Below, in pieces: positions 26,531 to 35,032 of a stretch of DNA of 64,000 nucleotides. Source of the stretch: Deltaproteobacteria bacterium (GTDB lineage: Bacteria; Myxococcota; Myxococcia; Myxococcales; 40CM-4-68-19); contig VBKI01000053.1 of NCBI GenBank assembly GCA_005879535.1, forward strand, positions 1 through 64,000, in the 5' to 3' direction. The notes beneath the pieces were generated by a model. That model was not told the DNA's origin. It worked only from the letters and a program-made list of their open reading frames with translations, and did no database searches. The first letter of the stretch is position 1. Each line of letters starts with the position of its first letter. The position numbers and the translations under genes were made by a program.

Positions 26531-26551
26531 TCAGCGCTGCCGCTGATCAGG
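26526..26551. terminator. Hairpin at convergent gene ends, possible bidirectional terminator
   Basis: A perfect 11-bp inverted repeat, CCTGATCAGCG-CTGC-CGCTGATCAGG, spans both stop codons: the ACP TGA at 26528-26530 and the GST TGA (TCA at 26531-26533 on the plus strand). It would form a stable stem in transcripts from either side. There is no T-tract on either strand, so it is not a textbook intrinsic terminator; it could block 3' exonucleases or pause convergent transcripts. Confidence 0.55.
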
Positions 26552-27157
26552 ATGGGCCTTGGCGAAGGCGTCGAGCTTCATGCAAGCGTCGTAGATGCGG
26601 CGCGTGCGCGGGAAGCCGGCGATGTCGACCTTGTACCGGATCGCGTTCGCCACCTGAGGCACCAGGAACACATCCGCCGCCGTGGGCGCATCGCCGTGGC
26701 AGTACGGTCCGCTCTCCGGCAACGCCGACTCCAGCCCGCGGAAGCCCTCGTGGATCCAGTGCGCGTACCAGCGGTCGCGCGCCGCATCGTCGGCCTTCAG
26801 CTCGCGCGCGAGGTAGCGCAGCACCCGCAGGTTGTTGAGCGGATGGATGTCGCAGGCGACGAGCTGCGCGATGGCGCGGACGCGCGACCTCGCCAGCGGC
26901 TCTTTGGGCAGCAGCGGCGGCTCGGGATGCGTCTCGTCCAGATACTCGACGATCGCCATCGACTCGAAGAGGAACTGTCCCGGCGCGAGCTCCAGCGCGG
27001 GAACGGAATGCATCGGGTTGACCCGCCGGTACTCCTCCGTCAGGTGCTGGTTCGCCCGCAGGTCGAAGACCACCGACTCGTACGCGAGGCGCTTGAGGTT
27101 GAGGGCGATGCGGACGCGGAACGCAGCGGAGGAGAGCACTGCTTCGTAGAACTTCAT
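26531..27157 (-). CDS. Maleylacetoacetate isomerase-like glutathione transferase (zeta class)
   Basis: A 208-residue GST. The N-terminal thioredoxin-like domain has the zeta-class SSAAFRVRIALNLKRL with the serine pair, HSVPALEL with the cis-proline and ESMAIVEYLDE; the helical C-domain contains PLNNLRVLRYL and YCHGDAPTAADVFLVPQV, matching MaiA. MaiA isomerises maleylacetoacetate to fumarylacetoacetate in tyrosine/homogentisate breakdown. The ATG lies in an ATGA overlap with the upstream epimerase stop, so they are coupled. No other tyrosine-degradation gene is near, so a role in the adjacent lipid pathway is possible but unproven. Confidence 0.85.
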   Translation of the reverse strand: MKFYEAVLSSAAFRVRIALNLKRLAYESVVFDLRANQHLTEEYRRVNPMHSVPALELAPGQFLFESMAIVEYLDETHPEPPLLPKEPLARSRVRAIAQLVACDIHPLNNLRVLRYLARELKADDAARDRWYAHWIHEGFRGLESALPESGPYCHGDAPTAADVFLVPQVANAIRYKVDIAGFPRTRRIYDACMKLDAFAKAHPDQRQR

Positions 27158-28137
27158 AGCCACCCCTCGGCGCGGTACCACTTCACCGCTTCCTGCACTC
27201 CTTGTGCCCACTGCACGCGCGGCTCCCAGCCGAGCTCGCGCCTCGCGCCCGCGCCGGAGCAGACCCAATGCGGCTGCGTCAGCTCGTTCACCTTGTCGAG
27301 CGTCAGCATCTGCGCCGTATTGGTCATCTTTCCCCAGAGCTGCGTCGCCGCTGCCGCCACCTTGACGACGCCGAGCGGCATTCCAAAGCGCACCAATGCG
27401 CGGCGGCCGAGCGCAGTCTCGATCTCCTTGAGGGCGTCACGCCAGACGTAGACCGAGCCATCGTCGACGAAATAGCTGCGGCCAGAGGGCACGCCCTGCG
27501 CGTGCAGCACCCGCACGACCGCCGCCGCGCAGTCTTCGACGTAGACGACGCTGAGCGTGTTCGTCCCGTCGCCGGTCATCGGCAGCACGCCGTTGCGAAC
27601 GGAGGTGAAGAACGCCAACGTCTCGCGGTCGCGCGGGCCGTAGATCAGCGGTGGTCGCACGACGGTGACGTGAAGCCGGTCCTTCGCCGCCAGCACCGCC
27701 CGTTCCGCCTCGAGCTTGCTCCGCCCGTAGTGCGTAACCGGCCGGGGCTCGACGTCATCGGCAACCGGCGTGCCGTCGGTGCTCGGTCCCACGGCCGCAA
27801 GCGACGATACGTACACGAACCGCGGGACGGGCCGGCGCAGCGCCGCCTCGAGCAGGTTCCTGGTGCCCTGGGTGTTCACCTCGAAGAACTCCGCTGGCCG
27901 CCGCGCCTTCACGATGCCAGCCACGTGCACGACGGCGTCCACGCCGTCCACGGCCGCGCCGAGCGACGCGCGATCCTCGATGGCGCCGGGAGCCAGCTCG
28001 ACGCGCGGCAGCCTGTCCAACACCTTCCGCTCGCTGCGCGGGCGGACCAGCGCCCGGACTACATGGCCTTCCGTCGCCAGCCGCTCAGCGACGAACGACC
28101 CGAGAAAGCCTGAACCCCCGGTCAGCAGGACCCGCAT
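27154..28137 (-). CDS. NAD(P)-dependent epimerase/dehydratase-type reductase
   Basis: A 327-residue extended short-chain dehydrogenase. The nucleotide-binding loop is LLTGGSGFLGSFVAERL; the catalytic Tyr-Lys is THYGRSKLEAERAV with Ser in VYVSSLAAVG. It resembles the 3-beta-hydroxysteroid dehydrogenase/epimerase branch. In Caulobacter a reductase of this superfamily (CerR) reduces 3-ketosphinganine, which makes this gene a candidate for reducing the alpha-amino ketone expected from the neighbouring PKS. This link is inference. It is divergent from the PKS gene (118 bp apart) and overlaps maiA by 4 nt. The start is the Met directly before the Rossmann strand. Confidence 0.85.
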   Translation of the reverse strand: MRVLLTGGSGFLGSFVAERLATEGHVVRALVRPRSERKVLDRLPRVELAPGAIEDRASLGAAVDGVDAVVHVAGIVKARRPAEFFEVNTQGTRNLLEAALRRPVPRFVYVSSLAAVGPSTDGTPVADDVEPRPVTHYGRSKLEAERAVLAAKDRLHVTVVRPPLIYGPRDRETLAFFTSVRNGVLPMTGDGTNTLSVVYVEDCAAAVVRVLHAQGVPSGRSYFVDDGSVYVWRDALKEIETALGRRALVRFGMPLGVVKVAAAATQLWGKMTNTAQMLTLDKVNELTQPHWVCSGAGARRELGWEPRVQWAQGVQEAVKWYRAEGWL

Positions 28138-28255: not shown

Positions 28256-31200
28256 TTGGAGATAGCGATCGTCGGGCTGGGGTGCCGTTTCCCCGGCGCC
28301 CGGGACCCACTCGCGTACTGGGAGCTCATCCGCAGCGGCACGGTCGTCTTCCGGCCCATCCCGGCGTCGCGCTGGGACCATTCCCGGTTCTACGACCCGA
28401 CCACCCGCGTTCCCGACAAGGCGTACATCGACAAGGGCGCCTTCCTCACCGACGAGGAGCTGCGGGAGTTCGCCTCGCTCCACTATGGGATCGCTCCACG
28501 GCGGATCCAGGTGACCGACCCGCAGCACCGGCTGCTGCTCGACTGCGTGAGCTCCGCGCTGCAGGACGCCGGGTACGAGCGACGCCCTTTCGAGCGCACC
28601 CGCGCCGGCGTCTTCATCGGCGCGAGCGTCAGCGAGCACAAGGAGTTCCTCCTCTCCCGCATCCGCGCCGTGCAACTCTTCGACGGCGCCTTCGGGCGCG
28701 CCCTTTCCGGACCGGAAGCCGACAACCTTCGCGACGCGCTGATCGAGCACGTGGTGCCGATGCGGGCCTTCTCGATGCCCGGCAACCTGCTCAACATGGC
28801 CGCCGCCATCGTCGCCCAGACATGGGACCTGGGCGGCCCCGCGCTCTCGGTCGACGCGGCCTGCTCCTCGGCGCTGGTCGCCACGCAGCAGGCCATCGTC
28901 AACCTGCGCGGCGGCCAGATCGACCTCGCGATCGCGGGTGGGGTGTACCTGAACCTGCTGCCGGACAACCTGGTGTGCTTCAGCCGCATCGGGGCGCTGT
29001 CCCGCCGTGGTGAATGCCGTCCCTTCGACGCCGGCGCCGACGGATTCGTGATGGGCGAAGGCGCCGGCGTGGTGGTGCTCAAGCGCCTCGACGACGCGGT
29101 TCGCGACGGGGATCGCATCTACGCCGTGGTGAAGGGAGCGTCGGCGAACAACGACGGCCGCAGCGAAGGGCCGATGACGCCGCGCCAGGGCGGTCAGCTC
29201 GAAGCCTTGCGGATGGCATATCGCGATGCGGCCATCTCTCCCACGAGCATCGGTTACCTCGAGGCGCACGGAACTGCCACGACCGTCGGCGACGTCGTCG
29301 AGGTGGGAGCGTTGCGCCAGCTCTTCGACGAGGCGGGATGGACGGCGGGCGGCGGCATCCGCACGGCGCTCGGAAGCGTCAAGGCGAACATCGGACACAC
29401 CATGTCCGCGTCCGGCATCGCGGGTCTGATCAAGACGGCTCTCGCGCTCCACCACGGAAAATTGCCGCCGCAACCGGGTGTCGCCGAGGAAAATGCGAAG
29501 CTCGAGCTGGGAGCCGGGCCGTTCTTCCTGCCGAGAGCCGAGACGCCGTGGGAGAGGAACGGGCGTCCGCGCCGCGCCGGCGTCAGCTCGTTCGGGTTCG
29601 GCGGCACCAACGTGCACCTGGTGCTCGAGGAGGCGCCGCAGCCGGCCCAGCCTCGCCGCACGCTTCCCGCGCCGGGCAAGGCGCGCGCCGAGCTGTTCCT
29701 GCTCGGCGGCGCTCGCGCCCCGGTGGTCGCGAAGTTCGCGCGGCAGATCGCTGCTTCCCTCCCCGGTCTGAGCCGCGAAGGGCGCTCGTTGGCCGACGTG
29801 GCGTACACGCTCTCGCAGCGCACGCACGGCGATGCCCGGCTCGCGCTGGTGGCGGACTCGTTCGACGTCCTCGCCGAGAGACTGCTCGCGTCCGCGGACG
29901 CGCTGGAGAAGCGCGGCGACGGCGTGGCGGACCGGATGGCGCATCCGGAGCCCTCGGTCCCCGTCCAGCTCTTTCCGGGCGCGGTGTTCGCGCAGGGGCC
30001 GTTCGAGAACCGGAAGGTCGCCCTGCTCTTTCCCGGCCAGGGCGCGCAGAAGGTCGGGTTGCTCCGCGAAGCGTACGAGCAGATACCAGCCTTCCGCGAA
30101 AAGCTCGATCAGCTCGATGCGTCCATCGCCGACCTGCATCCGCGCATCGGCGGATCGCTGCGCGGCTTCCTCCATGCGGAGCCGTCCGCGGAGGCCGAGA
30201 GACGCCTGACGCGCACCGAAGTCTGCCAGCCGGCGATGGCCGCCGTCGGCCTTGCCCTCCACGCGCTGCTGCACAAGCTCGGCATTGGCGGCGACGTCGC
30301 GGTCGGGCACAGCCTGGGCGAATTCGCGGCCGCGGGCGCAGCCGGATTGATTGGCGCGGAAGATGCCGTCCGACTGGTGTCACAACGCGGACTGGCCATG
30401 GTGGACTTGCCGCTCGCCGACGCGGGGGGCATGGCGAGCGCTGCCGCGTCTGCGCAGGAAGTCGCGGATGCGCTGCGCGGTATCGACGGAATCGTCGTCG
30501 CCAACCTGAACCACCCGAATCAGACGGTCATCTCGGGAACCACCGCCGCCGTGAACGCCGCGAGCACGAAGCTGACGGAGCGCGGTATCGCGGTGACGTC
30601 GCTGGACGTCTCGCACGCCTTCCATTCGCCCTTGATGGAGGGAGTCGCCGACACCATGCGCGCCCTGGTCGCCGATCTGCCGCTGGATCGCGCGGCGATC
30701 CCGGTGGTCAGCGCCATCACCGGCAAGCCCTACGCCGGCGACGAGCGCGACGTGTGGGTGCGGCACGCGACGGCGCCGGTAGACTTCGTCTCCGCACTTC
30801 GGGCGACGGCGGCGCTCGGCGCCCGCATCTTCATCCAGGTCGGCGCGGGCGGCGTGCTGACGTCCTTCGTGCGCGCGACGCTCCCCGAGAGCGAGCGGAC
30901 GGTGAACGTGTCCTTGGCATCCCGCGAGGACGACGGCCTGCAGCAGCTCGCTCTCGCGCTAGGGCACATCTGGGCAGCGGGCATCGAGCTGAACGCAGCC
31001 CCGCTCTTCGAGGGACGGGATGCCGGGCTCATCACCTTGCCGCCCACAGCGCTCGATACGCAGCCGTACTGGGTCGTCGAACGCCCGCAGGTCCCCGCAG
31101 AGCCGTTGCGGCTGCCCACGGCAGCGCAGGAGATGACGCAGATGGATCCGTTGGTGGCGCTGTTCCGCGAGCAGGTCGCTCTGTTGCAGCAGCAGGCGAA

Positions 31201-34200
31201 GGTGCTGGAGCAGCAGGCAGCGGCGCTGGCTGGAAAGGGAGTGGCGCTGCCGCAGCTCCCGGCGATCCCGCAGCTTCCGCAAAGCGCGTCGGCAGCACCG
31301 CCGGCGTCCCGGCCTGTCGAGCTCGCCGCCGCCGAGGCGGTAAAGCCGTTACCCCCGTCCGAGGAGCGGGTGGCGAAGGCGATCTTCGCGTCCGTCGCCC
31401 GCATCAGCGCGTTTCCGCTGGAGGCCATCAAGCCCTCGCAGACGCTCGCCGGCGATCTCGGCTTCGACTCGCTGATGACCGTCGAGCTGGACGGCGACGT
31501 GAACAAGGCGTTCCCGGGCTCCGGCGGACTGCCGCGGAACCTGCTCGGGCCGCAGACCAGCGTACAGGACATCGTCGAGCACGTGGCGCGGGCCGTCGCG
31601 CAGCCGCATGCGCCCATCGCTCCGGTGCTTTCGCCCATCCTCGGCGAGATGGCGAGCGAAGGGCGCGAGCTGCTTCCATTCGCCCCCTCGTTCGTCGAGG
31701 CGAATCTCGGCACGCCGGCGGCGGAGAACCCGTTGCCCAAGCGCCTGTTGCTCACGCGCGATCCGCTCGGCGTCGCGGACGCGCTCGCCGCGCTCCTCAA
31801 CGACAATGGCCACGACGCAATCGTCGGCGAGCCTGGAGACCCGCTGGAGAACATCGGCGGCGTGATCCATCTCGCGCCGCTCGGCCGTGGGGAGTCGGAG
31901 GTCGAGCCAGGGTTCAAGGCGGTGCTGGAAATGCATCGGCTCGCGCGGGCGCAGGCCGGGGCCGCCTCCGGCGGCACGTTCGTGGTCGCCGTCCCCGGGA
32001 CCGACGAGATCGACGCCGCCCTGGCCGGCTACGTGAAGGCCTTGGCGCGCGAGCGCACCGACGAGCTGGTCAAGTGCGTCGAGTTGCGCAGCGGGGACGG
32101 AGCTGGGGCCATGGCGAACGCGCTGTTCGCCGAGCTGCGCTCGGGCAACGCCGCCGCCGAGGTGCGCTGGGCAGGCGGAACGCGATACGAGCCGGATCTG
32201 GTGCCGGCCGCAACCGGCGAGCCCGTCGAGATCGGCTCCGGCGACGTCGTCCTGGTGACCGGTGGAACCCGTGGCATCGGGTTCAAGCTGGCGCAAGCGC
32301 TCTCCGAGCGGGGAGCGGCGGTGGCGCTGGCAGGCCGGACGCCCCCTCCGGCGCTGCCGCCACGGGCCGTATTCGTGCAATGGGACGTGACGAAGCCGGC
32401 GGCAACCGCTCTCGACGACGCGCGGGCGCGGCTGGGAAAGTTCACCGCCATCGTGCATGCCGCCGGAATCACCGAGGACGGTCCGGCCGCGGATGCGCGG
32501 GACGAGTCCGTCGAGCGCGTGCTTGCGACGAAGGTCGCCGGTTTCTGGGGCGCGGTCCTGGCCACGATGCAGGATCCGATCCGCGCCGTGGTTGCGGTTT
32601 CGAGCTGGGCGGGCCGCTTCGGAAACGCCGGGCAGACTTCGTACGCCGCCGCGAATGCGGCGCTGTCGCACGCCGTTGCGTCGCTTGCCCGCAAGCGCCC
32701 TGGCGTCCGGGCATCGTCCCTGGAGTATCCGCCCTGGGAAGGGACGGCGATGGTGGCGAAGATTCCGCCGCTCGTGCGAGCCGCGCTCGCCGAGCAGGGG
32801 GTGCCGTTCATCGACGACGCAGCGGGGATCGCGGCGTTCCTCTCGGCGCTGCGCGGCGGCTGGTCCGGGCCCGTCCTGCTTGCGCACTCTCGTCCCGCCC
32901 GCCGGATTGCGCACAAGGTTCGCATGCAGGTGTCGCGAGCCGAGCATCCGTACCTCGAAGACCATCAGCTCGCCGGTCAGCCGGTGCTTCCCCTTGCGGC
33001 AGCCCTCGACGTCGCCGCGTATGCGGCGGCGGAAGCGATCGGCACCTCCGGAGCGCCGCTCCTGCTCCGCGATTTCCGGCTGCGTCAACCCATCCGCATC
33101 GCCGACGCCGCCCAGTTCACCGTCTCCGTGAGTGGGTCGAACGAGCTGGCCGTGTCGCTGTCCTCCGCTGCTGCAGGAGCGCCGCGGGCGTTCTCGCGCG
33201 CCCCCGCTTACACGGCATTCGTCACGCCCGCCGCCGACGTCGCTTCCGCCTTGAGCTCCGCCCTTCCCGCCCCGGCAGCGATGGCTCTGCCCGAGCTGCC
33301 GATGACGCTGGACGAGTTCTACGGCGGCTTCACCTTCCACGGTCCGCGGATGCGCGCGATCGAGTCCATCGAGCAGATGTCGCCGCAGGGCATCGTCGGT
33401 TGGGTGCGGACGAGCAAGCCGGCCAACTGGATCCGCAATCCGCACCGGTCTTCGTGGACCGTGGATCCGCTCGCGGTCGACGGCGCGTTCCAACTCGCCG
33501 CGTACTGGGCGTGGTCCCACCTGCAACGGGCGGGGTTTCCCATCGGCATCGAGGAGTTCGTCCAGGTCGCTCCGCTGGGCGAGGGCCCGGTGCGCGCCTC
33601 GCTCACGCTCGAGCAGAGCGGCGGCGACGAGGTCCGCGGCACCATCGTGCTGCAGTCGCGCGACGGCAGGGTGGTGGCCGTTGCCCGCGGCGTGCAGGGG
33701 GAGTTCAAGCACCGCGATCCGCGCTTCCTCATCGGCCGCACCTCGCCGCTGAAGACGGCTCCCCCGGCTCCGGAGCCGAAGCCGCCGGCGGTCGACGAGG
33801 CGACGTATCGCATCGAGCAGTTCCCCGAGGTCCAGGAGCTGGAGCAGCGGCTCGGCCTCGCCACTGCGTTCGGCCTGCGCAATCCGTACTTCAACGTCCA
33901 CGAGCGCGTCACCAACGACACTTCGGTGATCGGCGGCCGGACGGTGATCAACTGGTCCAGCTACAACTACCTTGGCCTGTCTGGCGACCCGAACGTCACC
34001 CGGGCCGCGCAGGAAGCGGTCGCGCGGTACGGCACCAGTGTCTCCGCGAGCCGCGTCGCCTCCGGCGAGAAGCCGCTGCACCGCGAGCTCGAGCAGGAGC
34101 TGGCCGCGCTGCTCGGCACGGAGGACAGCGTCGTCACCGTGTCCGGCCACGGCGTCTTCGTCACCACCATCGCCACGCTGGTGAAAGACGGCGACCTCGT

Positions 34201-35032
34201 GTTGCACGACGCGCTGGCACACGACTGCATCGTCTCCGGCGCCAAGCTGTCGGGCGCGAAGCGCCGGCCGTTCCCGCACAACGACTGGCGCGCGCTGGAG
34301 AAACAGCTCCAGCAGCTCCGGCCGCACTACCGGCGCGTCCTCATCGCCATCGAGGGCGTGTACTCAATGGACGGGGACTTCCCCGATCTGCCGCGCTTCA
34401 TCGAGCTGAAGAAGAAGTACGGCTGCCTCCTCCTGGTCGACGAGGCGCACTCCATCGGCGTGATGGGGAAGACCGGAGCTGGAATCGGCGAGCACTTCGG
34501 CGTGAACCGCGCCGACGTCGACCTCTGGATGGGGACGCTGAGCAAGAGCTTCGCCTCCTGCGGCGGCTACGTCTGCGGCAGCAAGCAGCTCGTCCAGTTC
34601 CTCAAGTACAGCGCCGGTGGTTTCGTGTTCAGCGTGGGCATCTCGCCGGCGAACACCGCCGCGGCGTTGGAGGCGCTGCGGCAGCTCAAGGCGCATCCGG
34701 AGAAGGTGGCGCGCCTGCACGAGCGGGCGTCGCTGTTCCTCCGGCTGGCGAAGGAGAAGGGAATCGACACGGGCTTCTCGGCGGAGAGCGCGGTCATTCC
34801 GGCCATCCTGGGGAACTCGCTGCACGCGCTTCAAGTCAGCGATGCCCTCAAGCAGCGGGGAATCAACGTGCAACCGATTCTCTACCCCGCCGTCGAGGAA
34901 ACCGCGGCGCGCCTCCGGTTCTTCTGCACCGCCACGCACACCGAGCAGCAGATCCGCGAGACCGTGGAAGTGCTGGCGGAAGAGATCGCGCGGGCGCGGG
35001 CCGAATCCGGCGAGGCGACCGGTACGGCTTAA
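28256..35032 (+). CDS. Type I PKS with fused alpha-oxoamine synthase: KS-AT-ACP-KR-DH-AONS
   Basis: A 2258-residue multidomain enzyme. Ketosynthase about 1-430 with Cys203 (DAACSSAL), His338 (EAHGTA) and His381 (NIGHTM). Acyltransferase about 590-900 with Ser686 (GHSLGE) and HAFH at 787-790, predicting malonyl selection. A coiled, Gln/Pro-rich linker, then ACP with Ser1072 (GFDSL). Ketoreductase about 1330-1530 with GGTRGIG at 1336 and Tyr1463. Dehydratase about 1560-1830 with HxxxGxxxxP at His1570 and DGAFQ at Asp1742. From about 1850, a PLP-dependent alpha-oxoamine synthase like KAPA synthase or serine palmitoyltransferase, with Lys2097 (LSKSF) and LVDEAHSIGVMG. There is no enoylreductase and no thioesterase, so the AONS domain probably releases the chain as an alpha-amino ketone. 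ACP before KR and DH is an unusual order. TTG start, set by GGAGG 4 bases upstream and by the KS beginning at residue 2. Confidence 0.95.
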   Translation: MEIAIVGLGCRFPGARDPLAYWELIRSGTVVFRPIPASRWDHSRFYDPTTRVPDKAYIDKGAFLTDEELREFASLHYGIAPRRIQVTDPQHRLLLDCVSSALQDAGYERRPFERTRAGVFIGASVSEHKEFLLSRIRAVQLFDGAFGRALSGPEADNLRDALIEHVVPMRAFSMPGNLLNMAAAIVAQTWDLGGPALSVDAACSSALVATQQAIVNLRGGQIDLAIAGGVYLNLLPDNLVCFSRIGALSRRGECRPFDAGADGFVMGEGAGVVVLKRLDDAVRDGDRIYAVVKGASANNDGRSEGPMTPRQGGQLEALRMAYRDAAISPTSIGYLEAHGTATTVGDVVEVGALRQLFDEAGWTAGGGIRTALGSVKANIGHTMSASGIAGLIKTALALHHGKLPPQPGVAEENAKLELGAGPFFLPRAETPWERNGRPRRAGVSSFGFGGTNVHLVLEEAPQPAQPRRTLPAPGKARAELFLLGGARAPVVAKFARQIAASLPGLSREGRSLADVAYTLSQRTHGDARLALVADSFDVLAERLLASADALEKRGDGVADRMAHPEPSVPVQLFPGAVFAQGPFENRKVALLFPGQGAQKVGLLREAYEQIPAFREKLDQLDASIADLHPRIGGSLRGFLHAEPSAEAERRLTRTEVCQPAMAAVGLALHALLHKLGIGGDVAVGHSLGEFAAAGAAGLIGAEDAVRLVSQRGLAMVDLPLADAGGMASAAASAQEVADALRGIDGIVVANLNHPNQTVISGTTAAVNAASTKLTERGIAVTSLDVSHAFHSPLMEGVADTMRALVADLPLDRAAIPVVSAITGKPYAGDERDVWVRHATAPVDFVSALRATAALGARIFIQVGAGGVLTSFVRATLPESERTVNVSLASREDDGLQQLALALGHIWAAGIELNAAPLFEGRDAGLITLPPTALDTQPYWVVERPQVPAEPLRLPTAAQEMTQMDPLVALFREQVALLQQQAKVLEQQAAALAGKGVALPQLPAIPQLPQSASAAPPASRPVELAAAEAVKPLPPSEERVAKAIFASVARISAFPLEAIKPSQTLAGDLGFDSLMTVELDGDVNKAFPGSGGLPRNLLGPQTSVQDIVEHVARAVAQPHAPIAPVLSPILGEMASEGRELLPFAPSFVEANLGTPAAENPLPKRLLLTRDPLGVADALAALLNDNGHDAIVGEPGDPLENIGGVIHLAPLGRGESEVEPGFKAVLEMHRLARAQAGAASGGTFVVAVPGTDEIDAALAGYVKALARERTDELVKCVELRSGDGAGAMANALFAELRSGNAAAEVRWAGGTRYEPDLVPAATGEPVEIGSGDVVLVTGGTRGIGFKLAQALSERGAAVALAGRTPPPALPPRAVFVQWDVTKPAATALDDARARLGKFTAIVHAAGITEDGPAADARDESVERVLATKVAGFWGAVLATMQDPIRAVVAVSSWAGRFGNAGQTSYAAANAALSHAVASLARKRPGVRASSLEYPPWEGTAMVAKIPPLVRAALAEQGVPFIDDAAGIAAFLSALRGGWSGPVLLAHSRPARRIAHKVRMQVSRAEHPYLEDHQLAGQPVLPLAAALDVAAYAAAEAIGTSGAPLLLRDFRLRQPIRIADAAQFTVSVSGSNELAVSLSSAAAGAPRAFSRAPAYTAFVTPAADVASALSSALPAPAAMALPELPMTLDEFYGGFTFHGPRMRAIESIEQMSPQGIVGWVRTSKPANWIRNPHRSSWTVDPLAVDGAFQLAAYWAWSHLQRAGFPIGIEEFVQVAPLGEGPVRASLTLEQSGGDEVRGTIVLQSRDGRVVAVARGVQGEFKHRDPRFLIGRTSPLKTAPPAPEPKPPAVDEATYRIEQFPEVQELEQRLGLATAFGLRNPYFNVHERVTNDTSVIGGRTVINWSSYNYLGLSGDPNVTRAAQEAVARYGTSVSASRVASGEKPLHRELEQELAALLGTEDSVVTVSGHGVFVTTIATLVKDGDLVLHDALAHDCIVSGAKLSGAKRRPFPHNDWRALEKQLQQLRPHYRRVLIAIEGVYSMDGDFPDLPRFIELKKKYGCLLLVDEAHSIGVMGKTGAGIGEHFGVNRADVDLWMGTLSKSFASCGGYVCGSKQLVQFLKYSAGGFVFSVGISPANTAAALEALRQLKAHPEKVARLHERASLFLRLAKEKGIDTGFSAESAVIPAILGNSLHALQVSDALKQRGINVQPILYPAVEETAARLRFFCTATHTEQQIRETVEVLAEEIARARAESGEATGTA

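Follow-up and report, generated by a model that had tools for sequence, protein, structure and literature searches.

A fused polyketide synthase-oxoamine synthase without an enoylreductase in Myxococcota: a candidate desaturase-free route to 4-unsaturated sphingoid bases

The stretch of DNA analysed here, from a soil myxobacterium (the window: 64,000 nucleotides of contig VBKI01000053.1, assembly GCA_005879535.1) encodes, in a single frame of 2258 aa (28256-35032, plus strand), a polyketide synthase (PKS) module fused to an alpha-oxoamine synthase (AOS). Pfam finds in it, in this order, ketosynthase (KS), acyltransferase (AT), acyl carrier protein (ACP; PP-binding), ketoreductase (KR), dehydratase (DH; N and C parts of PKS_DH) and AOS (aminotransferase class I/II) domains; the start codon is TTG, with GGAGG 4 bases upstream. 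KS, AT, ACP, KR and DH all carry their catalytic residues and no enoylreductase (ER) is present, the composition of a reducing type I PKS module. The intact KR and DH and the absent ER are conserved across many Myxococcota. From these sequences, and from genes that accompany the fusion, we propose that the enzyme would make an unsaturated sphingoid base in one round of extension, with a 4-trans double bond, a reading to which we assign a probability of roughly 55%.

Both reductive domains lie where a preliminary description of the window had placed them (Table 1), and alignment bears out its choice of Tyr1463 as the KR tyrosine. The completeness of the two sites, raised in that description as the point to check, is evident on alignment, where all catalytic residues are present (K1426, S1450, Y1463 and N1467 in the KR; H1570, G1574, P1579, D1742 and Q1746 in the DH). 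An AlphaFold model of the KR-DH region (pLDDT 84.4, pTM 0.84, alignment depth 10 sequences) resembles solved enzymes, namely the ketoreductase 5ktk (Z 36.5, rmsd 2.9, 393 aligned) and the GphF dehydratase 6mbf (Z 26.9, rmsd 2.6, 257 of 274 aligned), with structure beyond model residue 507 barely tested by the comparison list, which includes two GphF DH entries. D1408 of the KR is presumably a B-type mark, leading to a 3R alcohol and a trans enoyl chain, and the HAFH motif of the AT is one that we take to mark the malonyl type.

The lack of an ER, also part of the preliminary description, was confirmed in two ways. Pfam detects no zinc-binding-dehydrogenase domain, and a hidden Markov model (HMM) of the ER, built from five SgaA/RkpA-type or similar synthases, finds no match in the window protein and gives at most 7.4 bits in the 38 other fused proteins introduced below; the ER-bearing protein of locus L034, whose sequence is among the five in the model, reaches 493 bits. 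The longest interdomain stretch in the window protein is 126 aa when residues 1115-1530 are counted as the whole KR. A hidden or fused ER was ruled out by the Pfam and HMM results, and a broken or decayed reductive loop by the retention of the KR and DH catalytic residues in every covered ER-less fused protein. The DH is conserved about as well as the KR: identities of the window protein for DH and KR are 61 vs 52% to L047, 75 vs 71% to L048, and 32 vs 38% to L011.

Within the window family, 11 of 12 genomes carry the AOS of the fused gene, with identities of 79-100%; G006 has none, G008 and G011 hold an AOS piece only, and the gene of G005 is cut by a contig end. A search of 195 genomes across the phylum yielded an AOS match at E up to 1e-90 in 49, and the stretches around these matches (all but that of G011) were scanned with HMMs from our own alignments. 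DH and AOS share one frame, with no ER, at 39 loci, from 38 Myxococcota genomes and a metagenome-assembled genome titled 'bacterium' (L011). All six domains were matched in 33 of them, and five are cut or frameshifted. In an alignment of the 39 fused proteins plus L034, the KR lysine, serine, tyrosine and asparagine show no exception wherever covered, and the DH histidine and aspartate show one among the 40 rows only in L034, which has an ER and another domain order. Other DH positions vary: L011 has E and L129 has D at G1574, L012 has A at G1696, and L116 has R at P1697. Because the KR-DH arrangement is conserved in 39 loci, chance is excluded. At L137 (1460-6994) the layout is KS-ACP-KR-DH-AOS with no AT match, perhaps served by an AT in trans; its genome, G033, has two matches to the desaturase model Lipid_DES. 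The remaining AOS matches have other layouts: fusions to a fatty acyl-AMP ligase (FAAL) in four genomes of family f22, a very long frame in G038, and short or different AOS proteins in G070, G083, G087, G088, G099 and G101, all six of which also have a stand-alone serine palmitoyltransferase (SPT).

The distribution of the fusion across the phylum is such that it looks like a replacement for stand-alone SPT. SPT was matched in 89 of the 195 genomes (query from G017, E up to 1e-90) and ceramide synthase in 135 (query from the window genome, E up to 1e-30). Since near-whole fusions reach about 1e-71 to 1e-80 with the SPT query, the 1e-90 limit separates SPT from fusion. Of the 135 genomes with a ceramide synthase, 86 have SPT only, 35 the fusion only, none both and 14 neither, an exclusion with a Fisher value of 2e-21 when relatedness is ignored; counted by genus, 26 have SPT only, 20 the fusion only and one both. 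The 14 genomes with neither include G008 (81% AOS fragment), G006 (completeness 89) and G038. Fused genomes without a ceramide synthase match are G159, G187 and G194, of the 195. No genome of the window family reaches E 1e-90 with the SPT query, the best matches being the fusion and BioF/KBL-like proteins. As candidates for a stand-alone SPT elsewhere in the window genome, an AOS on contig C48 was rejected as a BioF scoring over its cut-off; a second, on C6, is 33-36% identical to the queries and has an in-frame stop in the frame taken. Among the non-fused AOS proteins of the family, the five classified comprise two BioF and one KBL, each over cut-off, and two KBL-like proteins below cut-off.

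Genes linked to the fusion make a role of the locus in sphingolipid synthesis very probable. Of the 39 fused loci, 29 have a FAAL gene within the fetched stretch, and the window is a thirtieth, with a FAAL that falls beyond its own fetched piece, L001; in eight of the nine loci that have none, the upstream side is cut off or the gene is broken, and at L047 no FAAL lies in the 7.5 kb upstream. In 28 of the 29 FAAL-bearing loci (the exception is L116), a free ACP like that of the window stands between FAAL and PKS. A ceramide synthase occurs within the fetched stretch at 10 of the 39 loci, the nearest copy 0.4-1.4 kb from the PKS or FAAL, and a short-chain dehydrogenase/reductase (SDR) of CerR type at 10 of the 39, at most 0.9 kb away. 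At L113, five functions are packed into 12.7 kb: PKS-AOS, ACP and FAAL, then a divergent SDR and a ceramide synthase. The prediction in the preliminary description that the enzyme releases a sphingoid base gains support from the FAAL, ACP, ceramide-reductase and ceramide-synthase partners and by the exclusion with SPT. At L115 and L135, two adjacent YghO-type ceramide synthases lie beside the fused PKS-AOS and may use different acyl donors.

The window genome itself holds homologues of both a YghO-type ceramide synthase (39% identical, G000:C47:67424-68566) and a CerR-type SDR, which together mark a bacterial ceramide pathway. Homologues of YghO (E up to 0.001) were found in 17 of 21 genomes searched, the window genome included. 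In five genomes outside the window family (G012, G014, G016, G017 and G019), the homologue lies about 0.5 kb from a stand-alone SPT, and these YghO-adjacent myxobacterial SPTs group with E. coli SPT in the tree (99/97). Three of these regions were searched for a counterpart of the window SDR: in L086 and L087 one of 40% identity comes after SPT and ceramide synthase, and L088 gave none. Five ceramide-synthase regions fetched from the window family contain no AOS; in this family, whose contigs are short, ceramide synthase and AOS match never share a contig.

The best relative of the AOS domain in the PDB is the SPT of S. multivorum (235 bits), with plant LCB2a and AONS/KBL next at 206. It keeps the lysine that binds pyridoxal phosphate (PLP), the histidine over PLP, and the aspartate and histidine under PLP, in a GTLSKS motif that corresponds to GTFSKS of SPT. 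The roles of the S. multivorum residues are taken from the excerpted text of PMC10196870; equivalents of Ser81, His138, Thr241 and Lys244 are retained, whereas at the serine side chain Asn52 is replaced by tyrosine and Ser53 by asparagine, like Asn177 of human SPTLC2. In a midpoint-rooted tree of 55 sequences, with pairs from Pseudomonas TMW 2.1634 and Caballeronia standing in for SgaB, the AOSs of the fused proteins, SgaAB- and RkpG-type AOSs and the FAAL-AOS fusions form one clade (100/100), its inner branching partly open, and this clade plus SPT is split from BioF/KBL (98/92). Excerpts of PMC12134224 report that PfSgaB takes L-serine almost exclusively over alanine and glycine. Because the AOS falls in the SgaAB-type clade, PfSgaB has this preference and those four SPT residues are retained, serine is quite likely to be the amino acid used.

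In the proposed pathway, FAAL would adenylate a fatty acid and load it onto the free ACP, as its family suggests, and the KS of the fused protein would take over the chain for a single malonyl extension through the AT. The KR would then reduce the 3-ketone to the alcohol and the DH remove water; because KR and DH are present and an ER is not, the product is predicted to be a trans-2-enoyl-ACP, and we consider it likely that the enoyl chain reaches the AOS. There, condensation with L-serine and loss of CO2 would give 3-ketosphing-4-enine, the oxidised form of sphingosine. The YghO-type ceramide synthase, encoded elsewhere in the genome, would N-acylate the base, and the SDR adjacent to the PKS would reduce the ketone. 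The fused enzyme would thus stand in for SPT, and its DH would take the place of a 4-desaturase and need no oxygen. In other members of the clade, the AOS is fused to FAAL-ACP (L014) or to FAAL (L142, L144, L149 and L151) with no PKS domain found, so that feeding the AOS does not in itself call for a PKS module. Compared with these PKS-free relatives and with ER-bearing ones, the module of the window adds only two carbons and a double bond, which suggests that the double bond is the point of the module.

Several observations weigh against this reading and are taken up here with the alternatives. The product could be saturated, if a separate ER (FabI type or other) acted on the chain or the base were reduced later, giving sphinganine. 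Trans-acting ERs exist for PKSs without an ER domain, and a housekeeping ER acting in trans would be invisible to sequence analysis. The ER-domain HMM, however, matches nothing at the 39 loci as fetched, where FabI-type reductases were not searched for; the fused proteins lack a convincing ER score, and the SgaA/RkpA-type relatives that feed similar AOSs keep their ER in cis. We regard a saturated product as unlikely.

The synthase could instead be iterative, in which case several rounds of KR and DH action would yield not sphingosine but an aminoketone with a conjugated polyenyl chain, such as a 4,6-diene base. The KS-AT-ACP-KR-DH order resembles that of enediyne and polyunsaturated fatty acid synthases, and PfaA-type synthases are iterative. 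The nearest NCBIfam models for the KS-AT part are PKS_plus_SDR (784 bits, cut-off 1740) and PfaA (621, cut-off 1010), both below cut-off, and PfSgaA is called iterative in the excerpted PMC12134224. Against this, FAAL and ACP would supply a ready acyl starter at nearly every locus with upstream DNA, and partners such as ceramide synthase and reductase suggest a base destined for membrane lipids, making an iterative enzyme rather improbable.

Use of another amino acid (alanine or glycine), which would lead to a 1-deoxy base or a different aminoketone, or an unrelated product with an incidental link to the ceramide genes, would fit the NCBIfam scores of the AOS. Taken alone, the domain is under every SPT cut-off (NF047600, SPT-CFB, 312 of 640; NF047599 275 of 500; NF047603 218 of 670); bioF scores higher, at 349 bits, and the glycine C-acetyltransferase model is close at 296. 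Asn52 of S. multivorum SPT, which contacts the serine hydroxyl through water according to excerpts of PMC10196870, is a tyrosine in the AOS. The greater nearness of the AOS to SPT than to BioF/KBL depends on the midpoint root, and its fold model was poor (pLDDT 70) and went unused. Four of the five YghO-adjacent SPTs were scanned and are themselves below cut-off with their best model (SPT-CFB, 478-528 bits against 640). The closest PDB relative, the four retained SPT residues, the SgaAB-type clade and the exclusion of fusion and SPT among ceramide-synthase genomes all speak against a different amino acid or product, which we judge quite improbable. Least probable is that the DH behaves otherwise, shifting the double bond (3-enoyl) or remaining silent and so yielding a 5-ene base or an extra hydroxyl: some PKS DHs isomerise, and the nearest solved DHs come from GphF, of which isomerase variants were studied judging by entry titles, but both DH catalytic residues are conserved in every covered ER-less fused protein.

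The reading further has to accommodate the 14 ceramide-synthase genomes with neither SPT nor fusion, and G159 (contamination 6), which among all 195 genomes has both. The genomes are related, so that the Fisher values are not probabilities. The free ACP of the window resembles that of E. coli BL21 weakly (E 0.017), and three fused genomes (G033, G076 and G112) also have a Lipid_DES desaturase over cut-off.

Lipid_DES scores over cut-off in 34 of the 195 genomes: 29 have SPT only, three the fusion and two neither. Among SPT-only genomes the share is 29 of 88 and among fused-only ones 3 of 37 (Fisher 0.003 without regard to relatedness), or 12 of 26 vs 3 of 20 by genus (Fisher 0.03). The idea of a 4-desaturase as the clean complement of the fusion was rejected, this being a trend only, with 59 of the 88 SPT-only genomes lacking the desaturase. 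The occurrence of Lipid_DES makes the production of 4-unsaturated bases in Myxococcota plausible. DEGS-like 4-desaturases are found in several large-genome, SPT-bearing genera, and 4-ene bases may be made by two routes in the phylum; the gene at L153:1495-2439 appears to encode such a DES-type enzyme (Lipid_DES 54.6, FA_desaturase 108 bits).

The genes beside the fusion in the window are listed in Table 1 with the domains of the fused protein. The best NCBIfam model for the FAAL is PRK09192 fatty acyl-AMP ligase, at 499 bits vs a cut-off of 600, and we propose that the enzyme activates the starter fatty acid. For the SDR we propose the role of a ceramide/3-ketosphingosine reductase of CerR type. 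In E. coli BL21, genes for FAAL, an epimerase-type SDR, ACP and SPT adjoin yghO; the window FAAL, SDR and AOS are 33%, 32% (E 5e-34) and 34% identical to proteins of that sphingolipid locus, the SDR counterpart being the epimerase of the SPT operon. These E. coli genes and their Caulobacter homologues are described in excerpts of PMC9386255 as acyl-ACP synthetase, dehydrogenase/epimerase, specialised ACP, SPT and N-acyltransferase. As its neighbours match the E. coli set, the window locus looks like a version of it in which a reducing PKS module stands between ACP and SPT-like domain. For Caulobacter, the proposed order is SPT, ceramide synthase, then reduction by CerR (excerpted text of PMC11087976). 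A maleylacetoacetate isomerase-like gene, without obvious lipid link, lies between ACP and SDR; it is retained in some relatives, with homologues at L009, L010 and L048 and none at L050.

Table 1. Genes and protein domains at the fused locus of the window, with the evidence for each
Feature	Position	Strand	Evidence and residues
Fatty acyl-AMP ligase (FAAL), 586 aa	24506..26266	+	AMP-binding and DIP2-like C-domain (Pfam)
Free acyl carrier protein, 86 aa	26270..26530	+	motif LGMDSVAV; ACP models E 3e-10, below cut-offs
Maleylacetoacetate isomerase-like glutathione S-transferase (GST)	26531..27157	-	TIGR01262 maiA 255 bits, cut-off 171
Extended SDR, 3beta-HSD/epimerase type	27154..28137	-	Pfam; NCBIfam all below cut-off, best HpnA 165 of 368
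Ketosynthase	28259..29632	+	C203, H338, H381; Pfam and alignment
Acyltransferase	30011..31006	+	S686, H790; HAFH motif; Pfam and alignment
Internal ACP	31373..31591	+	S1072; Pfam and alignment
Ketoreductase, structural and catalytic subdomains	31628..32845	+	catalytic part 32237-32845; Pfam, alignment, fold model
Dehydratase	32876..33745	+	H1570, D1742 of DGAFQ; Pfam, alignment, fold model
Alpha-oxoamine synthase domain, SPT-like	33836..34999	+	PLP lysine K2097 in GTLSKS; H1989, D2062, H2065, R2221

The odds are about even that many Myxococcota without a stand-alone SPT make 4-trans sphingosine by a FAAL-fed PKS-SPT fusion, a route that would be desaturase-free, oxygen-independent and independent of animal DES. 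A direct route to sphingosine was reportedly tested once by giving SPT trans-2-hexadecenoyl-CoA. Among the matches listed in the open-access literature, no title concerned a Myxococcota PKS-SPT fusion or a desaturase-free sphingosine route; the open-access literature searched gave no lipid data for any bacterium with the fused gene, and the main text of a survey of conserved Myxococcota gene clusters (PMC12766979) contains neither 'sphingo' nor 'ceramide'. If the proposal is true, sphingosine, whose name derives from brain lipids, is also made by a second, PKS-based route that uses no oxygen, and the gateway enzyme SPT has been replaced in many lineages of one phylum. PKS/AOS loci resembling secondary metabolism would become membrane-lipid genes, and the genes for FAAL, ACP and PKS-AOS would form a cassette from which unsaturated sphingoid bases could be made directly by enzymes.

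Other layouts were met during the scans. The proteins at L014 (4209-7838), L142, L144, L149 and L151 look like PKS-free sphingoid-base synthases, f22 being a small-genome Myxococcota family; an SDR adjoins the FAAL-AOS fusion in L142 and L144. On a Planktothrix plasmid (L034:3587-11185), KS-AT-DH-ER-KR-ACP-AOS with a FAAL nearby is probably a fused saturated-chain version. A Streptomyces anthocyanicus plasmid (L032:5362-10200) carries KS-AT-ACP-AOS, in which no reductive domain was detected and which would give an unreduced 3-keto chain; an MMPL transporter is encoded nearby. SgaAB/RkpAG-type PKS and AOS pairs at L033, L036, L037 and L038 lie beside capsule or LTA-synthase-like genes, a hint that capsule lipid anchors may be sphingoid.

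Of the known systems, PfSgaAB of Pseudomonas fluorescens MYb115 is like the window in that a type I PKS would feed an AOS; for it, excerpts of PMC12134224 report SPT activity with serine as demonstrated, an SDR proposed as ketone reductase, and C24-C28 sphinganines as products, and the word 'FAAL' is absent from the main text. PfSgaAB is encoded by two genes, whereas the window has one fused, ER-less protein; the SgaAB/RkpA-type PKSs that were scanned (SgaA itself not among them) have the order KS-AT-DH-ER-KR-ACP. DH, ER and KR are all present in five PKSs, separate or fused, whose partner AOSs belong to this clade (L033, L034, L036, L037 and L038). The rhodobacterial genes (Caulobacter CC_1162-1165 and CC_1154; E. 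coli BL21 yghO-spt) are similar in that a single pathway unites acyl-ACP synthetase, specialised ACP, epimerase-type SDR, acyltransferase and SPT, but the acyl-ACP passes directly to SPT without a PKS, as described in excerpts of PMC9386255, whereas KS-AT-ACP-KR-DH stands between ACP and SPT-like domain here. By its description in the excerpted PMC3870968, the Synechococcus AMP-binding enzyme B1XHP8, which has an SPT-like domain, can be set beside the window. The FAAL-ACP-AOS protein of Planctomycetales (L014; AOS 63% identical to that of the window) and the FAAL-AOS proteins of f22 have an AOS of the window clade, and no PKS module was found in them. RkpA/RkpG-type capsule pairs resemble the window in combining a PKS with an AOS of this clade and differ in having an ER, a separate AOS gene and capsule gene neighbours; we take these names to apply to the pairs of Shinella and S. 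meliloti, with a similar pair in Caballeronia. The animal route, through SPT, reductase, ceramide synthase and DES, leads to the same backbone as predicted here, (4E)-sphing-4-enine. There the 4,5 double bond is set late, after condensation, by an oxygen-using desaturase, whereas in the window it would enter before condensation, by the action of a PKS dehydratase.

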